13,549 bases of DNA from Syntrophobacterales bacterium. Its GTDB lineage: Bacteria > Desulfobacterota > Syntrophobacteria > BM002. The notes beneath the pieces were generated by a model. It did no database searches, was not told the DNA's origin, and saw nothing but the letters and a program-made list of their open reading frames with translations. Location of the stretch: positions 1 through 13,549 of the forward strand of contig JAUWKY010000014.1 in assembly GCA_030613915.1 (NCBI GenBank). Direction: 5' to 3'. How positions within the stretch are numbered: position 1 is the first letter of the stretch; each line of letters opens with the position of its first letter. Shown here one piece after another: positions 1 to 13,074 of the stretch. The position numbers were made by a program, and so were the translations under genes.

Positions 1-318
1 CACATCACGGCTACTGGCGATGGCCTTGCGCGGTTGCGTCTGGGATGGATGGAGGTATCTAGTCGGTTGGCCCTGGGAGTGCCACTGGATCTAAACCAAA
101 CATCGGCAGCAGAGTTGTCCCAGGTGCCAGGAATAACTCAGACCTTGGCCGAACGTATCGTGGCTCAAAGGAACCGTCTTGGTGGATTTCCCAAGTTGGA
201 AGATCTTCGTGCTGTGAAGGGTATTGGTCCGGTAACACTAAAACGGCTGCGGCCGTTTTTTACAGTAGGCACCGTGGGACGACGCGGGGACGCGGAGAAA
301 CGGCGAGACGGGGATTAG
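1..318 (+). CDS. ComEA-like helix-hairpin-helix DNA-binding protein, 3' part
   Basis: The reading frame is open from the first base of the window, so the gene is cut at its 5' end and no start can be chosen; the TTG at 34 is only the first start-like codon inside the window. The segment LALGVPLDLNQTSAAEL followed by two helix-hairpin-helix units (LSQVPGITQTLAERIV and LRAVKGIGPVTLKRL) is the ComEA signature, a fold that binds DNA without sequence preference through the GIG/GIT hairpins. ComEA proteins act in DNA uptake at the envelope, but many bacteria that are not known to be competent carry stand-alone copies, so a role in transformation is not established here. The last residues (about VGRRGDAEKRRDGD) are rich in Arg, Asp and Gly, lie beyond the fold, and are encoded by a GACGCGGGGACGCGGAG-type repetitive stretch. 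The gene converges on the kinase gene, 92 bp away. Confidence 0.85.
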   Translation, partial: HITATGDGLARLRLGWMEVSSRLALGVPLDLNQTSAAELSQVPGITQTLAERIVAQRNRLGGFPKLEDLRAVKGIGPVTLKRLRPFFTVGTVGRRGDAEKRRDGD

Positions 319-409
319 AGGTCAGAGGTCAGAAGTCAGACGACAGAGGGCAGGTAATTTAGCATTTTCTATTTCTCATTTTCAAATTCGCAATCCAAAA
401 TCCGCAATC
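319..409. repeat. Degenerate heptamer array filling a convergent gap
   Basis: The whole gap between the ComEA-like stop codon (316-318) and the kinase stop codon (411-413) can be cut into 13 consecutive 7-bp units without losing phase. The first five follow ANNNCAG (for example AGGTCAG at 319 and 326, AAGTCAG at 333). Later units end in TTT (AGCATTT at 361, CTCATTT at 375) and then in ATC (CGCAATC at 389 and 403). No ORF or terminator is needed to explain it. Such arrays resemble the short tandemly repeated repetitive (STRR) heptanucleotides described in filamentous cyanobacteria, but that is resemblance in form only. Confidence 0.75.
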
Positions 410-410
410 C

Positions 411-1499
411 CTAAAGTCTTCTCACTCGAATTGAACGTCGCCTTTCTATGGGTATTTCCATAGTAACCGTAGTTCCCTCCCCGACCGTACTCTCGACCTT
501 GATGGTTCCGTCGTGGTCGTTGATGATACGTTGACTTATGGTAAGACCGAGGCCTACGTGCTCATTTTTTGTGGTGAAAAGCGGGTCGAAAATGAGAGGT
601 AAATCATCTGGTTTGATACCGCAGCCATTGTCACTGACGCTGAAGTGGATGCGGTCTTCAATGGCGGTTACCTGGATAGTGACCCCCACAGTGGGATCGC
701 CTGATTCCAGCGCATTGGTGATTACGGTGGCTAGACCTCTGGCCATAAACTCCACATCCATAAAGGCGCTTAGCGACCGCAGATCTTCAGCAGGCGGTGT
801 ATCCCATTCTGAGGCTGCTGCCTTTAAGGGTTCCGAAATCATATTCAGAGCTCGGTTCAGCAATTGCTCAAAATTATCGTGGGCTAGGGCGGGAAGAGGT
901 AGAGTTGTAAAATCGGCGAGGTTCCTCAGTAATTTATCCAACCGGCTGGCTTCTTGATAGATGATTTCCTGATAAAGTTGTTTGTCTCTCTCGTCAAGCC
1001 CTTTCCTGAGCAACCGGGCGGCAAAGCCACCTATCGCCGCAATCGGATTGCGGATGTGATGAGCCAACTGATCCACGACTTTTGCCATGGACCGCACTCT
1101 TTGGGTCTCCATGAGCTCACGCTGGAGAGTTTTCAAGGTGCCAATATCCTGAATAGCAGCTATGATAATATCCTGCGCGCCGCTTCGGTAGAGGAAGGTG
1201 GTGATATAGGCGAAAAACTCTCGGTTCTTTCTATCGCGCAAGAGCGCCTCACCTTCAAACCTCCCTTTTTCTCTGGTGAGTTTGATTATATTGGGCAGAA
1301 ATATCTCACAATCGTCCTCCAAAAACATGCATGAGATTGAACTGTCGCGCCATTCGCCTGCCCCGAACCCCAGCAGCTGTTCGGCAAAATTGTTGGTAAA
1401 TATAATTTGTCCGCCAGGCTCAAACAGGACAATTCCATGGTGGATCGAGTGCAGAATTGCTTGAAGCAGATCCTGATCGAGAGAGTTGGGGTCAGTCAT
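411..1499 (-). CDS. PAS-domain sensor histidine kinase (soluble)
   Basis: A 362-residue two-component sensor kinase with no signal peptide or membrane segment, so probably a cytoplasmic sensor. An N-terminal PAS domain (about residues 10-120) starts at ILHSIHHGIVLFEPGG. It is followed by a HisKA dimerisation/phosphoacceptor helix with LAHHIRNPIAAIGG (phospho-His about H147) and a HATPase domain: N-box ITNALESG near 261-268, G1 box DNGCGI at 290-295, F-box FDPLFTTK, G2 box GLGLTI at 316-321. The residue after the phospho-His is His where Glu or Asp is usual. The ATG at 1499 is preferred over the upstream TTG at 1532 because a GGGAAG stretch precedes it at sensible distance. No response regulator is adjacent, so the partner is unknown. 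It lies 130 bp downstream of moaA on the same strand and may be read from the same promoter, but the gap is long enough for its own. Confidence 0.9.
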   Translation of the reverse strand: MTDPNSLDQDLLQAILHSIHHGIVLFEPGGQIIFTNNFAEQLLGFGAGEWRDSSISCMFLEDDCEIFLPNIIKLTREKGRFEGEALLRDRKNREFFAYITTFLYRSGAQDIIIAAIQDIGTLKTLQRELMETQRVRSMAKVVDQLAHHIRNPIAAIGGFAARLLRKGLDERDKQLYQEIIYQEASRLDKLLRNLADFTTLPLPALAHDNFEQLLNRALNMISEPLKAAASEWDTPPAEDLRSLSAFMDVEFMARGLATVITNALESGDPTVGVTIQVTAIEDRIHFSVSDNGCGIKPDDLPLIFDPLFTTKNEHVGLGLTISQRIINDHDGTIKVESTVGEGTTVTMEIPIERRRSIRVRRL

Positions 1500-1629
1500 T
1501 ACTACTTCCCAGGAGGGTTCACCGCAGCACAAAGGAAAAATACAGGGTGATTCTAGAACGGAAAGGAGTTTGAGTCAACGGGCTAGGCAGGCTTATTCAT
1601 GAATCCCGGAGATCTCCGATTAGTGCAAG

Positions 1630-2751: not shown

Positions 2752-2878
2752 CAGTAGGCAGCGGGCAGAAAGATCAACAGTAATAAAAGCAAATATGTAA
2801 AATTTCCTTACTAGTTAATTGAACTAAAAACGAGTAAGATTATTTCCAACCTGCCAGCTGTCGGCTGTCAGCTGCCTG
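2752..2878. repeat. Two-armed CAG/CTG heptamer element upstream of tsaD
   Basis: The 315-bp gap between moaA and tsaD holds the moaA promoter and this element. The left arm (2752-2772) has three units beginning CAG (CAGTAGG, CAGCGGG, CAGAAAG). The right arm (2851-2878) has four units beginning CTG (CTGCCAG, CTGTCGG, CTGTCAG, CTGCCTG), which on the other strand look like the left-arm units. The 78 bp between them is AT-rich and carries no recognisable gene. The left arm shares 16 of 17 bases (2752-2768) with 4009-4025 on the far side of tsaD. Confidence 0.6.
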
Positions 2879-2937
2879 CTCTTCCGCGGCCAACTGAGAA
2901 CCGTGCAGCACAAAGAAAAACTGGAGAGGTAGGACTC

Positions 2938-4008
2938 GTGATAGTACTCGGTATCGAAAGCTCCTGTGATGAGACTGCTGCAGCTGTAGTGGAAGATGGG
3001 CACCGCATTCTCTCGAGCGTGGTTTCCTCTCAAATTGGTATTCATCGCCCCTATGGGGGTGTGGTGCCGGAGTTGGCCTCAAGGCAGCACGTGAAGGTGA
3101 TTATCCCGGTGGTTTCCGAAGCGCTTCAGAGAGCGGATCTCGACATGTCCGGTGTTGATGCCATCGCCGTTACTCAGGGACCAGGACTGGTGGGCTCACT
3201 TCTCGTGGGGATTGGAGTGGCCAAAGGGCTGGCGTATGCCACCGGTAAACCACTGGTTGCCGTAAATCATCTAGAGGGCCATATTTTGGCTGCTTTCTTG
3301 GAGGAATCACCACCCTCCTTTCCCCTCATCGCCCTCGTGGTCTCTGGAGGTCACACCAACCTATATTATGTAAAAGATTACAGTGATATAACACTGGTAG
3401 GCCGCACCCGTGATGATGCTGCCGGCGAGGCTTTTGACAAGGTGGCCAAGTTTCTGGATCTTGGCTACCCTGGCGGGGTGGTCATTGATGAGCTGTCCCG
3501 CAGTGGAAATCCCAGCGCCGTTTCTTTTCCCAAGGCTTGGCTGGAGAAAGACTCCCTGGATTTTAGCTTCAGTGGTATCAAGACGGCGGTAGTCAATTTC
3601 GTCCGAAAATATGTGAATTCCAATCAGGGTGACGGTATTGGGATTTCTGAAAACAGTGGTGCCTCGGTAAAACAGCTCCCTGTTCAAATTGCCGATATAG
3701 CCGCCAGCTTCCAGGAGGCGGTGGTTGATGTTTTGGTGGTTAAAACCTGTGCTGCGGCTCAGCGCTTTGATGCAAGTCAGGTGGTGGTAGCTGGTGGGGT
3801 GGCGGCCAATAGCCGCCTTCGGGAGCGTCTACGTGAGGAGGTCGCCAGACTGGGTTTACCGTTGATGTTGCCCAGAGCGGAGCTATGCACTGACAACGCA
3901 GCCATGGTTGCTGCCGCTGGTTTTCACCAGTTAAAAAAAACCGGCGGGAGCTGGGATCTGGATTTTGACGCCATTTCTCGCTGGCCCGATAAACCAGCAG
4001 GCAGCTAG
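2938..4008 (+). CDS. tsaD: tRNA threonylcarbamoyladenosine (t6A37) synthase subunit TsaD
   Basis: The Kae1/YgjD/Gcp family protein that transfers the threonylcarbamoyl group from its AMP conjugate to A37 of ANN-decoding tRNAs, working with TsaB and TsaE; normally essential. The start MIVLGIESSCDETAAAVV is diagnostic. The metal-binding histidines occur in NHLEGH (H111, H115). The glycine-rich GGVAANSRLRE follows at 286-296, and the metal-binding Asp lies in the C-terminal CTDNAAM (D319). Length is 356 residues, a little over the usual 335-345, because of a polar insertion at about 226-247 (SNQGDGIGISENSG) and a short tail. The start is GTG at 2938, supported by GGAGAGG and AGGA just upstream. 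The last codons (PAGS and the TAG stop) lie inside a CAG-heptamer array. Neighbours are unrelated, and tsaB/tsaE are not in the window. Confidence 0.97.
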   Translation: MIVLGIESSCDETAAAVVEDGHRILSSVVSSQIGIHRPYGGVVPELASRQHVKVIIPVVSEALQRADLDMSGVDAIAVTQGPGLVGSLLVGIGVAKGLAYATGKPLVAVNHLEGHILAAFLEESPPSFPLIALVVSGGHTNLYYVKDYSDITLVGRTRDDAAGEAFDKVAKFLDLGYPGGVVIDELSRSGNPSAVSFPKAWLEKDSLDFSFSGIKTAVVNFVRKYVNSNQGDGIGISENSGASVKQLPVQIADIAASFQEAVVDVLVVKTCAAAQRFDASQVVVAGGVAANSRLRERLREEVARLGLPLMLPRAELCTDNAAMVAAAGFHQLKKTGGSWDLDFDAISRWPDKPAGS

Positions 4009-4168
4009 CAGCAGGCAGCGGGCAGGAAGCAGTAGACACATTTCACATTAGGCATTTATCATTTCAAATTGAAGATAGAAGTCATAAGTTCTATTTATAT
4101 AGATGACAAATGCTAAATGCGCAATGCGAAATGACTAAATCTGTTAGCTGCCTGCTGACTGCTGCCTG
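3995..4168. repeat. Two-armed heptamer element joining the ends of tsaD and the VWA gene
   Basis: The left arm (3995-4071) is 11 in-phase units: six beginning CAG (CAGCAGG at 3995, CAGCTAG at 4002 carrying the tsaD stop), then units of the CACATTT/ATCATTT kind. The right arm (4106-4168) is nine in-phase units: AAATG-type (CTAAATG at 4113, CGAAATG at 4127), then CTG-type (CTGCCTG at 4148 and 4162). Read on the other strand, the right arm has the same order of unit types as the left arm. The outer ends contain a perfect 13-bp inverted repeat (3995-4007 with 4145-4157). The transcript from either gene could fold back over this region, so it may end transcription of both genes, although there is no clear U-tract. 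Confidence 0.75.
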
Positions 4169-5367
4169 CTCGCTTTTTTGGGTGGCGCGCCGGAATTCAG
4201 CCACTCAACTCCCCGCCTGATGCCTGCCAGGGTGAGGTCCTCCATGGGAAAGATTTCGCCAATCTGGTCAATTGTCTGGCTTTCGCGGGGCCACCTTGAT
4301 CGGGGGATGGGGTTGAGCCAGACACTGTGAGTGAAGTGATTTCGGATCTGCAACAGCCAATCTCGCCCCGGCACTCTGATCTTGGAAAAATAGTCCATGG
4401 CACCATTGGAGAGCATGAGCTCGGCCGGAGCCATGTTGGCGTCGCCTATAATGATTACCCGGGTTTCCGGGTCACGTCGAACCAGGTGGTGTATAAGATA
4501 GGGGGTGAGCCGTTTCGGGTCGCTATAGACACAGCCGTAGACGCAGTTGTGGAAATAATAATAATCTAAGTCCTTGAAGTGATCGCGCATGAGGCCGAAA
4601 ACCAGTTTGACCAGATCCAAATAAGGTCGCATGGAAGCCCCGCCATTGTCCATCAGGACGATAACCTGGATACGATCTCTCAGTTCTCTTTTAAAGACCA
4701 GTTCGATTTCCCCGCCGTTTCTGCAGGAGCGATCAATGGTCTCATCCACATCCAGTTCGGTCAGGGGGCCTGCAGGTGCCATGTGCTTCAGGGCGGCGAG
4801 GACCTGGCGGAGATTTTCGGCCCGAAGGGTGGCGCTGGTGGCATAATCGACATAGCGGCGGCTCTCTATGACCTTGAGGGCAGAGCCATGCAGTGAGTCG
4901 CCGTGCACCCTGATACCTTCGCGATCAGCGCCGGAGTGCCCGAAGGCTGAGGTGCCTCCGGTGCCAACCCAGGTATGACCACCTCGGTGTTTCCCTCTCT
5001 GCTCCATGACCACATCCCAGAAACGTTGGAGCAGTTCAGGCAGCGACAGCCGCTCCAAAGCGTCATCCGGCAATGAGCCTTTGGCCATCTCTTCTTCAAG
5101 CCAGCGGCGAAAAGCTTTCTCTTCCCAGGCCTGCTGAGAGAACTTTGGGATTTCCGCACCCTCAGCCCCAAGGAAATAAGCTGCGAATGCCTGCTCGAAA
5201 CCGTCGAAGTGCTCAACTTTCTTAACGAAAATGAGTCGCATAAGAATGAAGAGTCGATCCAGGTCAGGAGCAAGCCCCTTCTCCATGGCCTGGTAGAATT
5301 CCAGCACATGGCGGAGGCTGATGGGGACACCCTGCTCCCGCAGTTGGTAAAAGAAAGGAAGGAACAT
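4144..5367 (-). CDS. CoxE-type von Willebrand factor A domain protein
   Basis: A 407-residue cytoplasmic VWA protein of the CoxE-like group (COG3825/COG3552 kind) that is usually encoded next to a MoxR AAA ATPase. The N-terminal part (FYQLREQGVPISL, then FVKKVEHFDGFEQAFAAYF) is typical of this group. The VWA domain is about 232-395. The metal-ion site region reads VLMDNGGASM (D240 to S245) instead of the classical DxSxS, with a second acidic stretch IIIGDANMAP near 306-313. Known pairs such as CoxD/CoxE act on maturation of a metal enzyme; the partner here is unknown. The ATG at 5367 lies 20 bp after the AAA stop codon and has no strong ribosome site, suggesting coupled translation. The tail SRQQSAGS and the TAA stop are encoded by a heptamer repeat. 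A partial second copy of the 3' end lies at 7061-7275. Confidence 0.88.
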   Translation of the reverse strand: MFLPFFYQLREQGVPISLRHVLEFYQAMEKGLAPDLDRLFILMRLIFVKKVEHFDGFEQAFAAYFLGAEGAEIPKFSQQAWEEKAFRRWLEEEMAKGSLPDDALERLSLPELLQRFWDVVMEQRGKHRGGHTWVGTGGTSAFGHSGADREGIRVHGDSLHGSALKVIESRRYVDYATSATLRAENLRQVLAALKHMAPAGPLTELDVDETIDRSCRNGGEIELVFKRELRDRIQVIVLMDNGGASMRPYLDLVKLVFGLMRDHFKDLDYYYFHNCVYGCVYSDPKRLTPYLIHHLVRRDPETRVIIIGDANMAPAELMLSNGAMDYFSKIRVPGRDWLLQIRNHFTHSVWLNPIPRSRWPRESQTIDQIGEIFPMEDLTLAGIRRGVEWLNSGAPPKKASRQQSAGS

Positions 5368-5387
5368 GATTGTCGTTCTTGTGCTCG

Positions 5388-6212
5388 CTAAACGTTTTTT
5401 CGCTCCACGCCCTTGTGTTGCAGCAAGTCTTGAGTACGCTTGAGGAGAGTTCCGAGCAAAGGAATCTTGTCAGGCGTGATTGGCGGTTTCGCCTCATCTA
5501 GCTGTAGGGCACCGAGCCAATCCAACAGTTCCGCGGTAGCAGGCGGCTTCTCGAAGCCTTGCTGCCGCAAATGATAGAAGATGGCCAGGGCTGAATCCAT
5601 AAGGGGAGCAGAAATCTCAGGGTAGTGCAACCGGATAATCTCGGTCATCTCTTCCATTGAGGGAAAGGGAATATGGTGGCAGTAACAGCGGCGGAGGAAA
5701 GGATCTGAAAGCTCCCTTTTGGCGTTGCTGGTGATTATGGTTATGGGCATTTGGTTGGCCTTCACCTTGTGGTTTATCTCGCGGATGATAAAGGAGGCGT
5801 CTTCCAGCACGTCCAGCAGATTGTCCTGGGTGTCCGAATCAGTCTTGTCGATCTCATCCAGCAAAAGGATGCGTCGATCCTCTGCCAGAAAAGCGCGGCC
5901 GATAGGGCCGAAGCCCAGGTAATCCCAAATGTCGTTTACATCCCGACCGCTCTCCTCGGTGCCGAAACGCGAATCGTTGAGGCGCAAGACCGTGTCATAA
6001 ACGTAGCAAAGCTCCTCGCCCTTGAAGGTGGATTTGCAGCGAGCCTCTTCCAGAGTCAAGTCCAGTGCCCGGGCAATCTCGAAGGCCAACTGAGTCTTGC
6101 CGGTTCCGGCCTCCCCGGTGACCAGCAAGGGTTTTTCCATGGCAGTGGAGATGTTGACGATCTCTTTTAGTTCGGGATTGAGGTAATACTTGTCGGTGCC
6201 GAGAAATTGCAT
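5388..6212 (-). CDS. MoxR-type AAA+ ATPase
   Basis: A 274-residue AAA+ ATPase of the MoxR class, single domain, without signal peptide. Walker A is GEAGTGKT (33-40), Walker B is LLLDEID (116-122), sensor 1 is in TSNAKRE (161-167), and an arginine finger is likely in DPFLRRC (R174/R175). The opening KEIVNISTAMEKPLLVTGEAGTGKT is typical of ATPases paired with CoxE-like VWA proteins. MoxR ATPases remodel or help insert cofactors into protein complexes, with the VWA partner acting as adaptor. The start ATG at 6212 has GAGAGGG just upstream. It is the first gene of a two-gene operon with the VWA gene. The 173-bp divergent region to the gene at 6386 is AT-rich and presumably holds promoters for both directions. 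Confidence 0.93.
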   Translation of the reverse strand: MQFLGTDKYYLNPELKEIVNISTAMEKPLLVTGEAGTGKTQLAFEIARALDLTLEEARCKSTFKGEELCYVYDTVLRLNDSRFGTEESGRDVNDIWDYLGFGPIGRAFLAEDRRILLLDEIDKTDSDTQDNLLDVLEDASFIIREINHKVKANQMPITIITSNAKRELSDPFLRRCYCHHIPFPSMEEMTEIIRLHYPEISAPLMDSALAIFYHLRQQGFEKPPATAELLDWLGALQLDEAKPPITPDKIPLLGTLLKRTQDLLQHKGVERKNV

Positions 6213-6946: not shown

Positions 6947-7034
6947 AACTCGAGTCTGTCGTTTGAACATTTGTGGATGGAAACGAACCAGTGCAGAGAA
7001 AGTTTATTTAGTGCCTAGTATCTACTGCCCGCCT

Positions 7035-7055
7035 GCCCTGAGCTTGTCGAAGGGC
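7035..7055. repeat. CCTGAGCTTGTCGAAGG-type interspersed repeat
   Basis: A 21-bp stretch with complementary ends (GCCCT and AGGGC) around the core GAGCTTGTCGA. This short element recurs in very diverse bacterial genomes, where it yields peptides such as LRQAQGR or LSLSKG when read through. Here it directly abuts the partial VWA gene copy, whose minus-strand frame reads through it as LRQAQGRR. A weaker relative (CTTAGCCTTCCAAAGGGC) sits beside the terminator at 8585. Confidence 0.6.
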
Positions 7056-7060
7056 TTTCT

Positions 7061-7275
7061 TAGGTGGCGCTCCGGAATTCAGCCACTCAACTCCCCGCCT
7101 GATGCCTGCCAGGGTGAGGTCTTCCATGGGAAAGATCTCGCTAATCTGGTCAATGGTCTGGCTTTCGCGAGGCCACCTCGATCGGGGGATGGGGTTGAGC
7201 CGGACACTGTGAGTGAAGTGATTGCGGATCTGCAACAGCCAATCACGCCCTGGCACTCTGATTGTGGCAAGATGC
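7061..7275 (-). pseudogene. Partial copy of the 3' end of the CoxE-type VWA gene
   Basis: The minus strand encodes a near-copy of residues about 328-399 of the VWA protein at 4144-5367 (IRVPGRDWLLQIRNHF through GVEWLNSGAPPKKA). By eye the DNA differs at about 11-12 positions over about 205 bp aligned with 4180-4385. Only two changes alter the protein in the matched part (W to R and G to S), so most differences are silent. A TAA lies in frame just upstream, near the 7275 border, and the N-terminal four-fifths of the gene is absent, so this is a remnant. The frame remains open to 7008 only by running through the adjacent short repeat. The rest of the 451-bp gap 6947-7397 holds a promoter for the next gene and otherwise nothing recognised. 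Confidence 0.85.
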
Positions 7276-10748: not shown

Positions 10749-10922
10749 ATGGCTGAACAAGTCTGTCGTGGAGACCATTCAGGTCATATTTGTGTTCTGG
10801 CGAGTTGCGGTGATTTCGACAAGATCAAGGAGTTAACAAGAGACCCCAAGTATATATGTTTCAACTGTGGCAGAGTGGCAATCTCTGACGAGTATTTGTG
10901 CAACGGCATGAAGAACGAATAA
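10749..10922 (+). CDS. Small Cys-rich (zinc ribbon-like) protein, 57 residues
   Basis: The frame from ATG 10749 to TAA 10922 is preceded by a strong GAGGTGG (10738-10744) four bases from the start. The product has six cysteines (C6, C15, C20, C37, C40, C51) and two early histidines (H10, H13). The core DPKYICFNCGRVAISDEYLC has a CxxC-GRVA knuckle that looks like a zinc ribbon half. I believe similar tiny proteins (ending in CGRVA...LC) are found in other anaerobes, but no function is known to me. It sits 33 bp after the DksA-like gene and before a terminator hairpin, so both are likely co-transcribed. It may bind Zn or Fe and serve as a partner of the transcription factor; this is inference. 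Confidence 0.8.
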   Translation: MAEQVCRGDHSGHICVLASCGDFDKIKELTRDPKYICFNCGRVAISDEYLCNGMKNE

Positions 10923-11153: not shown

Positions 11154-11293
11154 AAATAACAAATAACAAATAACAAATATCAAACAAATCACAATGACCA
11201 AAATTCGAAATTCCAAACCTGTTTTGTGTTTTGGTCATTGAATATTGGAATTTGAGATTTGTTTGTGATTTGGTGCTTGAAATTTGGGATTTC
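11154..11293. repeat. Two-armed degenerate heptamer array, 20 units
   Basis: All 140 bases divide into 7-bp units in one phase. The left half starts with three AAATAAC units (11154, 11161, 11168) and moves through GACCAAA and ATTCCAA. The right half has TTG-initial units (TTGTGTT at 11224, TTGGTCA at 11231, TTGGAAT at 11245), then ATTTG-ending units. The halves are related as reverse complements: a perfect 12-bp inverted repeat pairs 11192-11203 (CAATGACCAAAA) with 11229-11240. This array occupies much of the 528-bp gap 10923-11450. The remainder holds a terminator, copy 1 of the 43-bp repeat and a C-rich hairpin. Confidence 0.75.
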
Positions 11294-11970: not shown

Positions 11971-12061
11971 CTGACAGCTGACACCTGACACCTGAATCCT
12001 CAACATTGCCACCCGACACCTAAAATACTGAGATTTGATGCTTGGAGTTTGGGATTCTATA
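11971..12061. repeat. Degenerate heptamer array, 13 units
   Basis: Units begin CTGACAG, CTGACAC, CTGACAC, CTGAATC at 11971. After two divergent units, CCGACAC (12013) appears still in phase, followed by TTTGATG, CTTGGAG, TTTGGGA. The last part closely matches the end of the array at 11154-11293 (GATTTGGTGCTTG... there, GATTTGATGCTTG... here). Confidence 0.65.
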
Positions 12062-12063: not shown

Positions 12064-12138
12064 CGAACCAGAGTATAAATAAGGTATGGGTTGCATTTTT
12101 TAAATGTTTCCGCAACTATGTTCGGCGAAGGGAGATGT

Positions 12139-12278
12139 GGGATTTCGGATTGCGAATTTGAAAAAAGGCATAGGGCATAGGGCATAGAGAAAAAATAGAG
12201 TAGTCAGTAGTTCAAGACAAATGTTTTCTTCCTTTTTTTCTGGATTCTGAATTCTGGCTCCTGACTTCTGGGTTTGGG
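12139..12278. repeat. Degenerate heptamer array, 20 units
   Basis: One phase holds from GGGATTT (12139) and CGGATTG through three identical GGCATAG units (12167, 12174, 12181) to ATTCTGA, ATTCTGG, CTCCTGA, CTTCTGG (12244-12271). The units in 12188-12236 are poor, yet the phase is the same on both sides of them. The array ends about 40 bp before the HAD gene. Confidence 0.65.
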
Positions 12279-12318
12279 ATGTGGATAAGGATATGATGAT
12301 GGAAGGAGAGGAACCGTG

Positions 12319-13074
12319 ATGGAGCATATAAAGGCCGTTGGCTTTGACCTCTTCAATACTCTTATTACCATGGACCTCCTTGCACTGAAGGATGCCCTGA
12401 CAAGGCTCACCGGCAGTCTTAAGGAAAACGGCTTCGCCATTGACCACGGCCAATTTGTGAAGGCGCACAGTGAGGCGGTGCTGAACTTCTTAGAACAGAC
12501 CAAGCGAGATGGGAGGGAAAGTCACAACAGGTTTTGGATCAGCACCGCTCTAGCCAAACTAGGTCATGACGTTTCGCCGGACGATCCCCATATCTCAGAC
12601 GCCGTTGACGTCTATTTCTCGGCCTTTATTCAACATGCCACGATCATTCCTGGAACCAGGGAAATGCTTGCCACTCTCCGAGACCGTTACCGTATCGGGC
12701 TACTCTCCAATTTCACTCATCCCCCCGCTGCCAGGAATCTGATAACCCAACTCGAGCTGGAACCTTTCTTTGAGGTGGTGCTCATTTCAGGGGATCTGGG
12801 GTATCGCAAGCCCCAGCAGTCAGTCTTCAGGGAGCTTATACTCCAGTTGGGGGTGGAGAAAGACCACATTGCCTTTGTGGGAGATGACCCGGAGGCGGAT
12901 GTGGCAGGCGCCTTAAGGGCGGGTCTGCAGCCCATCTGGACCACCTATGTGCGGGACAACAATATTTCGCCTGCCCCTGGAATGCTCGGACCAGGGGATG
13001 ACGCCCCGGATCCAGCGGTGCCAAGGATTGCCAACTGGAAAGACTTGCTTACTCTGCTGAACGCCAGCTCCTAG
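12319..13074 (+). CDS. HAD-superfamily (IA) hydrolase, dehalogenase-like motif I
   Basis: A 251-residue cytoplasmic hydrolase of the haloacid dehalogenase superfamily. Motif I is GFDLFNTL with nucleophile D10; motif II is LLSNFTH (S130); motif III is YRKP (K164); motif IV is FVGDDPEADVAGA (D189, D190, D194). The helical cap lies between about 17 and 105. In phosphatases the residue two after the nucleophile is Asp (DxD); here it is Phe (F12), as in L-2-haloacid dehalogenases where Tyr is common. Either dehalogenase-like chemistry or an atypical phosphatase is possible, and the substrate is unknown. The tail DAPDPAVPRIANWKDLL fits the usual HAD-IA end. The ATG at 12319 or the GTG at 12316 can both use the AAGGAG at 12303-12308; ATG is preferred. 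No operon partner is seen. Confidence 0.92.
   Translation: MEHIKAVGFDLFNTLITMDLLALKDALTRLTGSLKENGFAIDHGQFVKAHSEAVLNFLEQTKRDGRESHNRFWISTALAKLGHDVSPDDPHISDAVDVYFSAFIQHATIIPGTREMLATLRDRYRIGLLSNFTHPPAARNLITQLELEPFFEVVLISGDLGYRKPQQSVFRELILQLGVEKDHIAFVGDDPEADVAGALRAGLQPIWTTYVRDNNISPAPGMLGPGDDAPDPAVPRIANWKDLLTLLNASS

Follow-up and report, generated by a model that had tools for sequence, protein, structure and literature searches.

The window analyzed here, a stretch of 13,549 nucleotides, opens within the gene for a helix-hairpin-helix (HHH) protein and continues with a sensor kinase gene on the opposite strand (Table 1). The closest homologues of the kinase are 362 amino acids long, and the few that carry a name are proteobacterial or deltaproteobacterial. 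The gap between the two genes occupies positions 319 to 410 (92 bp) and is made up of two or three abutting arrays of short tandem units, with a period-8 array ahead of them in the 3' end of the HHH gene. Tandem Repeats Finder (TRF) reported period-7 arrays at positions 317 to 353 and 385 to 410, together with a 14-bp reading at positions 384 to 410. An Rfam search gave no match over the gathering score in the whole window.

Table 1. Genes and repeat arrays in the window
Feature	Positions	Strand	Evidence
HHH_3 (helix-hairpin-helix) protein gene, 3' part; left gap edge	1-318	+	ORF; PF12836, E 1.1e-19
Period-8 array GACGCGGN in last codons of HHH gene	281-314	+	Lag-8 island, score 14
Heptamer array, unit GGTCAGA	317-353	+	TRF period 7; lag-7 island, score 20
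AT-rich block, ATTTNNN type, weakly periodic	354-383	+	Lag 14 z 3.4; lag 7 z 1.7; lag 8 z 2.4
Heptamer array, unit AATCCGC/AATCCAA (kinase strand, GGATTGC); abuts kinase stop	384-410	-	TRF; orthologous gaps
PAS/HisKA/HATPase sensor kinase gene; right gap edge; likelier start at 1499	411-1532	-	ORF; Pfam
Heptamer array, CTGTCAG type, moaA-tsaD gap	2851-2880	+	Lag-7 island
Heptamer array CAGCAGG, over last tsaD codons and stop codon	3995-4032	+	Island; stop-proximity count
Heptamer-periodic block, tsaD-VWA convergent gap	4037-4089	+	Island
Heptamer array AAATGCN	4103-4133	+	Island
Heptamer array GCTGCCT, last codons of VWA gene; opposite in orientation to 3995-4032	4147-4170	-	Island
Heptamer array AAATAAC	11154-11184	+	TRF; island
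Heptamer array CTGACAC	11971-12003	+	Island
Heptamer array, GGATTKC type	12124-12158	+	Island
Heptamer array GGCATAG	12167-12211	+	TRF; island
Heptamer array TTCTGGA	12238-12284	+	TRF; island

At positions 319 to 409, the fraction of matches at lag 7 was 0.607, compared with a mean of 0.252 in 2,000 dinucleotide-preserving shuffles (z 6.9), none of which reached as high a value; at lag 14, the fraction was 0.623 (approximately 0.25 when shuffled), and again 0 of 2,000 shuffles attained it. The neighboring lags were low (0.329 at lag 6 and 0.337 at lag 8), and the shuffles rule out chance composition as the source of the periodicity. The initial annotation of this locus, which had proposed a 7-bp period and had named a lack of recurrence of its unit types elsewhere in the genome as a refutation, is borne out on both points: with up to two mismatches allowed, the pattern GTCAGAGGTCAGAAGTCAG occurs at 35 places in the same genome and its reversed form at none.

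The gap had also been described as exactly 13 heptamers in one unchanging phase, a description that the sequence does not sustain. The gap is 92 bp long, and the first array begins at position 317, within the stop codon TAG (316 to 318) of the HHH gene, while the last extends to position 410. Where the CAG-type units give way to TTT-type units, the adjoining heptamers AGGGCAG and GTAATTT match at 0 of 7 positions; at the junction between positions 381 and 382, lag 8 matches at 5 of 8 positions and lag 7 at only 3 of 7. The middle block, which had been read as NNNNTTT units, is weak when taken alone (Table 1). Furthermore, 22 adjacent pairs of arrays from different families, taken from the window and from two sampled genomes, gave 252 matches in 1,039 (24.3%) in phase 0, compared with 21.1 to 29.2% in the other phases. 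A single-phase array running through the gap was therefore dropped, since in-phase matching is no higher than that in other phases.

Heptamer arrays are dense in the intergenic DNA of two genomes of the genus. In 54 readable contigs, out of 60 sampled, of the window's own genome (G000; 332,604 bases), 109 islands of lag-7 matching were found at a threshold of 12, with 0 in shuffled controls, an outcome in favor of the periodicity described in the initial annotation. A second member of the genus (G002) gave 102 islands, with 0 when shuffled, in 396,500 bases at the same threshold, compared with 1 island in 199,200 bases of another family member (G009) and 2 in 200,000 bases of a more distant member of the class (G029); the densities per 100 kb are 33, 26, 0.5, and 1.0, respectively. 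Other lags in the own genome gave 20 islands at lag 8 (1 shuffled), 19 at lag 9 (0 shuffled), and 59 at lag 14 (0 shuffled), with at most 4 each at lags 4 to 6, 10 to 13, and 15. Tandem heptamers beyond chance are a mark of heptanucleotide simple sequence repeats (LSSR class), and they are present here. The 211 islands yielded 91 unit consensuses, many differing by a single base, and period-8 arrays (AATTAGNN, TGGAGTNN, and GACGCGGN) and period-9 arrays (ACGNTTTCT) lie beside the period-7 ones, although several of the lag-9 matches resemble coding repeats. At a threshold of 11, only 2 of 126 island midpoints in the own genome and 2 of 110 in G002 fell within a called gene, as judged by a home-made gene caller that uses codon scores and misses genes.

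The pattern GGATTNCGGATTNCGGATT follows the same distribution: it had 26 to 69 matches in each of nine genus genomes and 1, 0, and 0 matches in three other genera of the family (one genome each). It is present in 15 of 55 class genomes; the six of these outside the genus hold 1 to 21 matches, and in one of these six (G040), the reversed control gave 39 matches against 11 for the pattern itself. An assembly artifact is an unlikely source of the arrays, because the single-contig members of the genus (G002, G005, and G006) also bear them.

The arrays are concentrated at gene ends. Of 530 stop codons, 51 have an array of period 7 or 8 no more than 20 bp away, compared with 14 of 548 start codons; the corresponding counts for G009 and G029 pooled are 1 of 290 and 0 of 291. 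Islands per kilobase (G000 and G002) amount to 1.78 and 4.12 in convergent gaps, 1.84 and 1.40 in codirectional gaps, and 1.14 and 0.89 in divergent gaps. Adjacent islands no more than 150 bp apart formed 96 pairs, of which 24 were inverted neighbors of the same family (null expectation, 3.9 to 5.7%) and none were direct neighbors of the same family (null, 3.4 to 4.2%), the latter tending by construction to merge into one island. Some inverted pairs, at loci L036, L051, and L074, are copies of one another; therefore, the excess of inverted pairs is real, but the count is not one of independent events.

The main rival to a near-neutral origin of the arrays, and one that we consider unlikely, is that they are selected 3'-end elements, in which a G-rich sense strand past the stop codon would form a hairpin with an inverted C-rich array and thereby end or insulate transcripts. 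This explanation has some support at the genome level and fails at the HHH-kinase gap. The inverted neighbors fit it, as does the finding that GG dinucleotides at a spacing of 7 in the 80 nt past stop codons are in excess (68 versus 44.6 shuffled in G000 and 101 versus 47.8 in G002), with smaller excesses in the control genomes (44 versus 36.0 in G009 and 43 versus 33.0 in G029). As in the heptamers described by Rehm et al. (PMC4692102), the G-rich strand is thus the sense strand after stop codons, more clearly in G002 than in G000; G-skew over islands as a measure of orientation gave P values of 0.30 and 0.058. In the HHH-kinase gap, GGTCAGA follows one stop codon and GGATTGC the other. In other lineages, 37 of 112 GGATTKC arrays with enough flanking sequence had an inverted partner within 150 bp downstream, with the G arm first, and 2 had one upstream, several of these loci coming from one acidobacterial bin. 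Gaps with arrays also fold better than other gaps in G000 (mean z -2.51, n = 26, versus -1.47, n = 58; P = 0.018); however, the difference in G002 is nonsignificant (-1.35, n = 29, versus -0.80, n = 87; P = 0.10).

Several further observations speak against a 3'-end role. Folding of the HHH-kinase gap does not surpass that of its shuffles for either strand (z +2.2 and +0.8), so that a hairpin terminator is unsupported there, and the regions 270 to 413 and 2700 to 2940 gave z values of only -1.1 to +0.3. CC dinucleotides at a spacing of 7 past stop codons are in excess in G000 too (39 versus 23.2), with little excess in G002 (50 versus 42.3); CC before start codons is uninformative for the genus because it is in excess in all four genomes, the array-poor ones included. 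The two sampled genomes contained 14 exact GGATTKC arrays, none of which had an inverted partner. Divergent gaps bear arrays too (6 and 9 islands), and the contents of gaps differ between close relatives.

Within the window, the convergent tsaD-VWA gap (positions 4009 to 4143) folds better than shuffles (z -2.2 on the + strand and -3.2 on the - strand), and its oppositely oriented GCAGGCA arrays extend into the final codons of each gene. An ORF at positions 7008 to 7256 (- strand) repeats, with few differences, the C-terminal portion of the VWA protein (4144 to 5367, - strand). The VWA copy ends in the heptamer array (ASRQQSAGS), and the tail of the ORF is ALRQAQG, which to us reads like a REP-type repeat.

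Comparison with relatives indicates how the arrays change. Seven other genomes, six from the genus and one from elsewhere in the family (G010), have the HHH and kinase genes side by side. In G003, the kinase side of which aligns to the window at 96% DNA identity, the orthologous gap is 240 bp long and contains other arrays in addition to a kinase-side AATCC array. The gap in G007 is 138 bp long, with an AATCC-type array present on the kinase side; those in G002, G004, and G008 contain GGCAGCN-type arrays, and those in G006 and G010 are short (25 and 55 bp), with no clear array on visual inspection. At this gap, therefore, arrays have been replaced between relatives, not stepped. Visual comparison of the moaA-tsaD gap likewise shows an ATTT-type array common to G003 and G005, with different content in the window's genome; the G003 and G005 arrays differ by 14 bp and by an identical change in two units. 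Roughly the final dozen codons of the HHH gene (positions 281 to 318) coincide with the octamer array. Array drift seems to rewrite protein C termini, since the HHH proteins of relatives end differently.

Whole-unit steps are evident elsewhere. When four contigs of the own genome and the window were compared with 95 loci of relatives (matches of at least 300 bp and at least 82%), 33 intergenic indels were recorded, of which 19 were of 4 bp or more and 9 of those 19 were exactly 7 or 14 bp. After two same-site pairs were merged, the count became 8 of 17 (7 of 16 if a third possible pair is merged), compared with about 2.4 of 17 expected if sizes ignored 7; in the same alignments, 9 of 14 coding indels were of 3 bp. 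Change by whole units, the other mark of simple sequence repeats, is thus seen in 8 of 17 indels, though not at the HHH-kinase gap. Two findings count against the explanation favored below. Of the 9 indels of 7 or 14 bp, only 3 lie inside arrays that the own genome was found to contain; in addition, some of the 9 are not clean tandem duplicates, with similarity to the neighboring stretch of 1.0, 1.0, 0.57, and 0.14 for the 7-bp indels and 0.43 to 0.86 for the 14-bp ones. By eye, one 14-bp difference consists of two separate 7-bp duplications.

Composite blocks recur as well. When window positions 270 to 412 were compared with the own genome, at least 50 matches were obtained, counting the window itself and with 40 of 113 candidates scored. 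Among the matches scored, most of the composite of octamer array, GATTAG, and GGTCAGA array was found at six other places, over 52 to 84 bases at 83 to 94% identity. These six copies span the greater part of the octamer array together with its junction to the heptamer array. That the GATTAG junction is common to the copies suggests that ready-made blocks were copied and not grown anew at each locus. Together with the overrepresentation of 7- and 14-bp steps among intergenic indels, this recurrence supports the earlier proposal that the gap arose by expansion or copying of 7-bp units.

Based on these comparisons, we favor, with a probability of roughly 0.63, the explanation that separate degenerate arrays (of periods 8, 7, and 7) make up the gap as a mosaic, which arose by slippage-type change in unit number and by the copying of blocks and which is probably near neutral here. 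Local gain and loss of units would result from replication slippage or unequal exchange, with 7-bp steps favored, as has been reported for other bacteria, and ectopic recombination, or gene conversion among arrays of similar sequence, could carry blocks to new loci. Repeats may then accumulate just past stop codons because constraint is presumably least there; the content of the HHH-kinase gap is probably under no strong selection.

Alternatively, the arrays might be parts of mobile palindromes, similar to REP/BIME elements or MITEs, that are mobilized by a transposase, for example a Y1 (RAYT) enzyme. Dispersed elements do occur: one of approximately 158 bp with heptamer-built ends (locus L068, positions 5275 to 5432) has about 45 matches among those listed, in three relatives, and is present in G000 and G007 and absent from the same site in G003. 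Pieces of 23 and 30 bp containing CGACAAGCTC lie inside arrays of relatives, the own genome being without them, and the inverted pairs that are copies of one another also fit such an origin. The CGACAAGCTC pieces (L053 near position 3558 and L023 near position 12651) are present in G005 and G007, as if inserted. A palindromic dispersed element of approximately 105 bp (L068, positions 10782 to 10886) begins with AGTAGGTCGG and ends with CCGACCTACT; close copies of it occur at other sites in G003, and G007 has a related one at the same site. However, at an E value cutoff of 0.001, matches to Y1_Tnp (PF01797) number 0 to 7 in nine genus genomes, with none in G007 and 1 in the window's genome, compared with 8, 10, and 1 in the array-poor G009, G010, and G011. 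A Y1 transposase was therefore rejected as the agent, since these counts do not follow array density. For the arrays of the window, no defined ends or target duplication were seen, and we regard an origin from mobile palindromes as highly improbable.

The unit found on the kinase strand of the gap has a far wider distribution. A scan of named genomes with 3.7 copies of GGATTKC gave at least 119 stretches, and nine phylum-level names appear among the 80 matches listed: Acidobacteria, Planctomycetes, Verrucomicrobia, Bacteroidetes, Chloroflexi, Gemmatimonadetes, Nitrospirae, Deltaproteobacteria, and Staskawiczbacteria, the last of which we assign to Patescibacteria. Single phylum assignments may be wrong, since nearly all the records listed are metagenome bins; one is a complete planctomycete chromosome. 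An acidobacterial bin, isolate SZAS-13 (L206, L214, and others), carries up to six long GGATTKC arrays per 8 kb and is far denser in this unit than the window's genome.

The variable base of this unit is restricted. In tandem contexts of GGATTNC from the two genus samples, it was T in 29, G in 18, A in 1, and C in 0 (T or G in 47 of 48); outside the searched stretch in other genomes, it was T in 25, G in 27, C in 2, and A in 1 (52 of 55), and the edge rows of the searched stretch, counted apart, gave 3 T and 1 A. In viral contigs, 53 stretches had the K form, 1 had the M form, and 3 had the reversed unit. GGTNTCA behaves alike (T 29, G 23, and C 2; in viral contigs, 29 stretches with K versus 4 with M). 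However, the T/G rule is not general, because the GGTCAGA family of the window varies mainly between G and A (22 G, 11 A, 1 C, and 1 T at one position). The T/G states of hairpin arms agree (rho 0.61, n = 16), a correlation that is confounded, with one genome supplying many of the pairs. Nothing was concluded about a viral vehicle for the units, because the parts of the contigs that bear them may be host flanks.

One explanation for this recurrence would be a dedicated sequence-specific process, common to distant bacteria, that writes or keeps heptamers. The nine phylum-level names among the matches listed, the T/G preference in both sets of genomes, and the predominance of the K form in viral contigs are all consistent with it. 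However, no candidate gene was found, the GGTCAGA family breaks the T/G rule, and the remaining vocabulary occurs elsewhere at rates near those of permuted units. In named genomes, 3 of 56 islands of other families fit the vocabulary of the own genome, compared with 5.4% for permuted units, and in viral contigs, the values were 11 of 80 versus 6.7%, 4 of 37 versus 6.6%, and 10 of 81 versus 8.0%. A vocabulary common to other lineages was rejected as near chance; among the matches listed, the 37 of 119 exact fits (9% for permuted units) were mostly the queried family itself. Elsewhere, GGATTKC and GGTNTCA are not clearly accompanied by the other units. We regard a dedicated process for these heptamers as very unlikely.

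A narrower form, which we hold to be distinctly doubtful, is that GGATTKC above all is kept or written by a sequence-specific process common to distant phyla and that this process has spread to many units in the genus. It would be read from the recurring unit, from inversions in which the G arm often comes first, and from the T/G-restricted position, which represents a choice by transversion alone, such as ordinary mutation would scarcely produce. Slippage alone accounts for neither the inverted pairing within families nor the T/G choice in two units, and it leaves unexplained why array density is high in the genus and low in the relatives sampled. If such a process did exist, it would have turned much of the intergenic DNA of the genus into arrays, and if the restriction to T or G and the recurrence of GGATTKC across phyla are both borne out, it can be asked which enzyme or binding protein recognizes the heptamer.

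The genus allows the turnover of intergenic DNA between species to be watched. Steps of 7 bp are frequent in this turnover, which takes place near the ends of genes and in some cases reaches the final codons of proteins.

The arrays resemble several known systems. The STRR sequences of filamentous cyanobacteria are 7-bp tandem units in intergenic DNA, as here. Likewise, the BIMEs and REPs of enterobacteria are combinatorial intergenic mosaics of short motifs in palindromic arrangement; a REP is a 20- to 40-bp palindrome with a GTAG or CGTC end tag. Unlike BIMEs, which are built from REPs of that size, the blocks described here are tandem arrays, and they have no RAYT link.

The initial annotation had linked heptamer repeats to filamentous cyanobacteria, a link that proved too narrow, given the phylum-level names recorded for GGATTKC among the matches listed and the published heptamer repeats of Xanthomonas, Nostoc, Beggiatoaceae, and others (PMC4692102 and PMC4679880, in the passages concerned). 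In the relevant passages of Rehm et al. 2015 (PMC4692102), G-rich heptamers (GGGAATC and GGGGA[C/T]T) are described from Xanthomonas and Nostoc, and their role is left unresolved. As here, those passages depict the repeats as noncoding and variable between relatives, preferentially located within 50 bp past a stop codon (coding strand) or before a start codon (noncoding strand), and underrepresented between divergent genes. Unlike those heptamers, the HHH-kinase gap has no set of four GGG runs, with one run on the + strand and one on the other, leading into the kinase stop codon; the arrays described here comprise 91 consensuses instead of one type and form mosaics with period-8 and period-9 arrays. 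The TAACTGA heptamers of Beggiatoaceae, some Cyanobacteria, and Bacteroidetes (MacGregor 2015; PMC4679880), as presented in the passages concerned, are similar in being intergenic and scattered across phyla; however, they consist of one unit, mostly just upstream of start codons, whereas the arrays here have many units and lie nearer stop codons.

As cited in passages of both papers, the survey of Mrazek et al. 2007 dealt with long simple repeats of 5- to 11-nt units, found heptanucleotides to be overrepresented and the commonest class in most genomes, and proposed polymerase slippage; degenerate mosaics are unmentioned in the passages citing it. Repeats of 4 to 11 bp are described in a passage of another report (PMC4060949) as normally or weakly overrepresented. 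A full-text search of the open-license literature with six of the unit strings gave no bacterial-repeat paper by title. In conclusion, heptamer arrays are already known from bacteria; what is new is the degenerate, many-unit, multiperiod mosaics that are dense in one genus.
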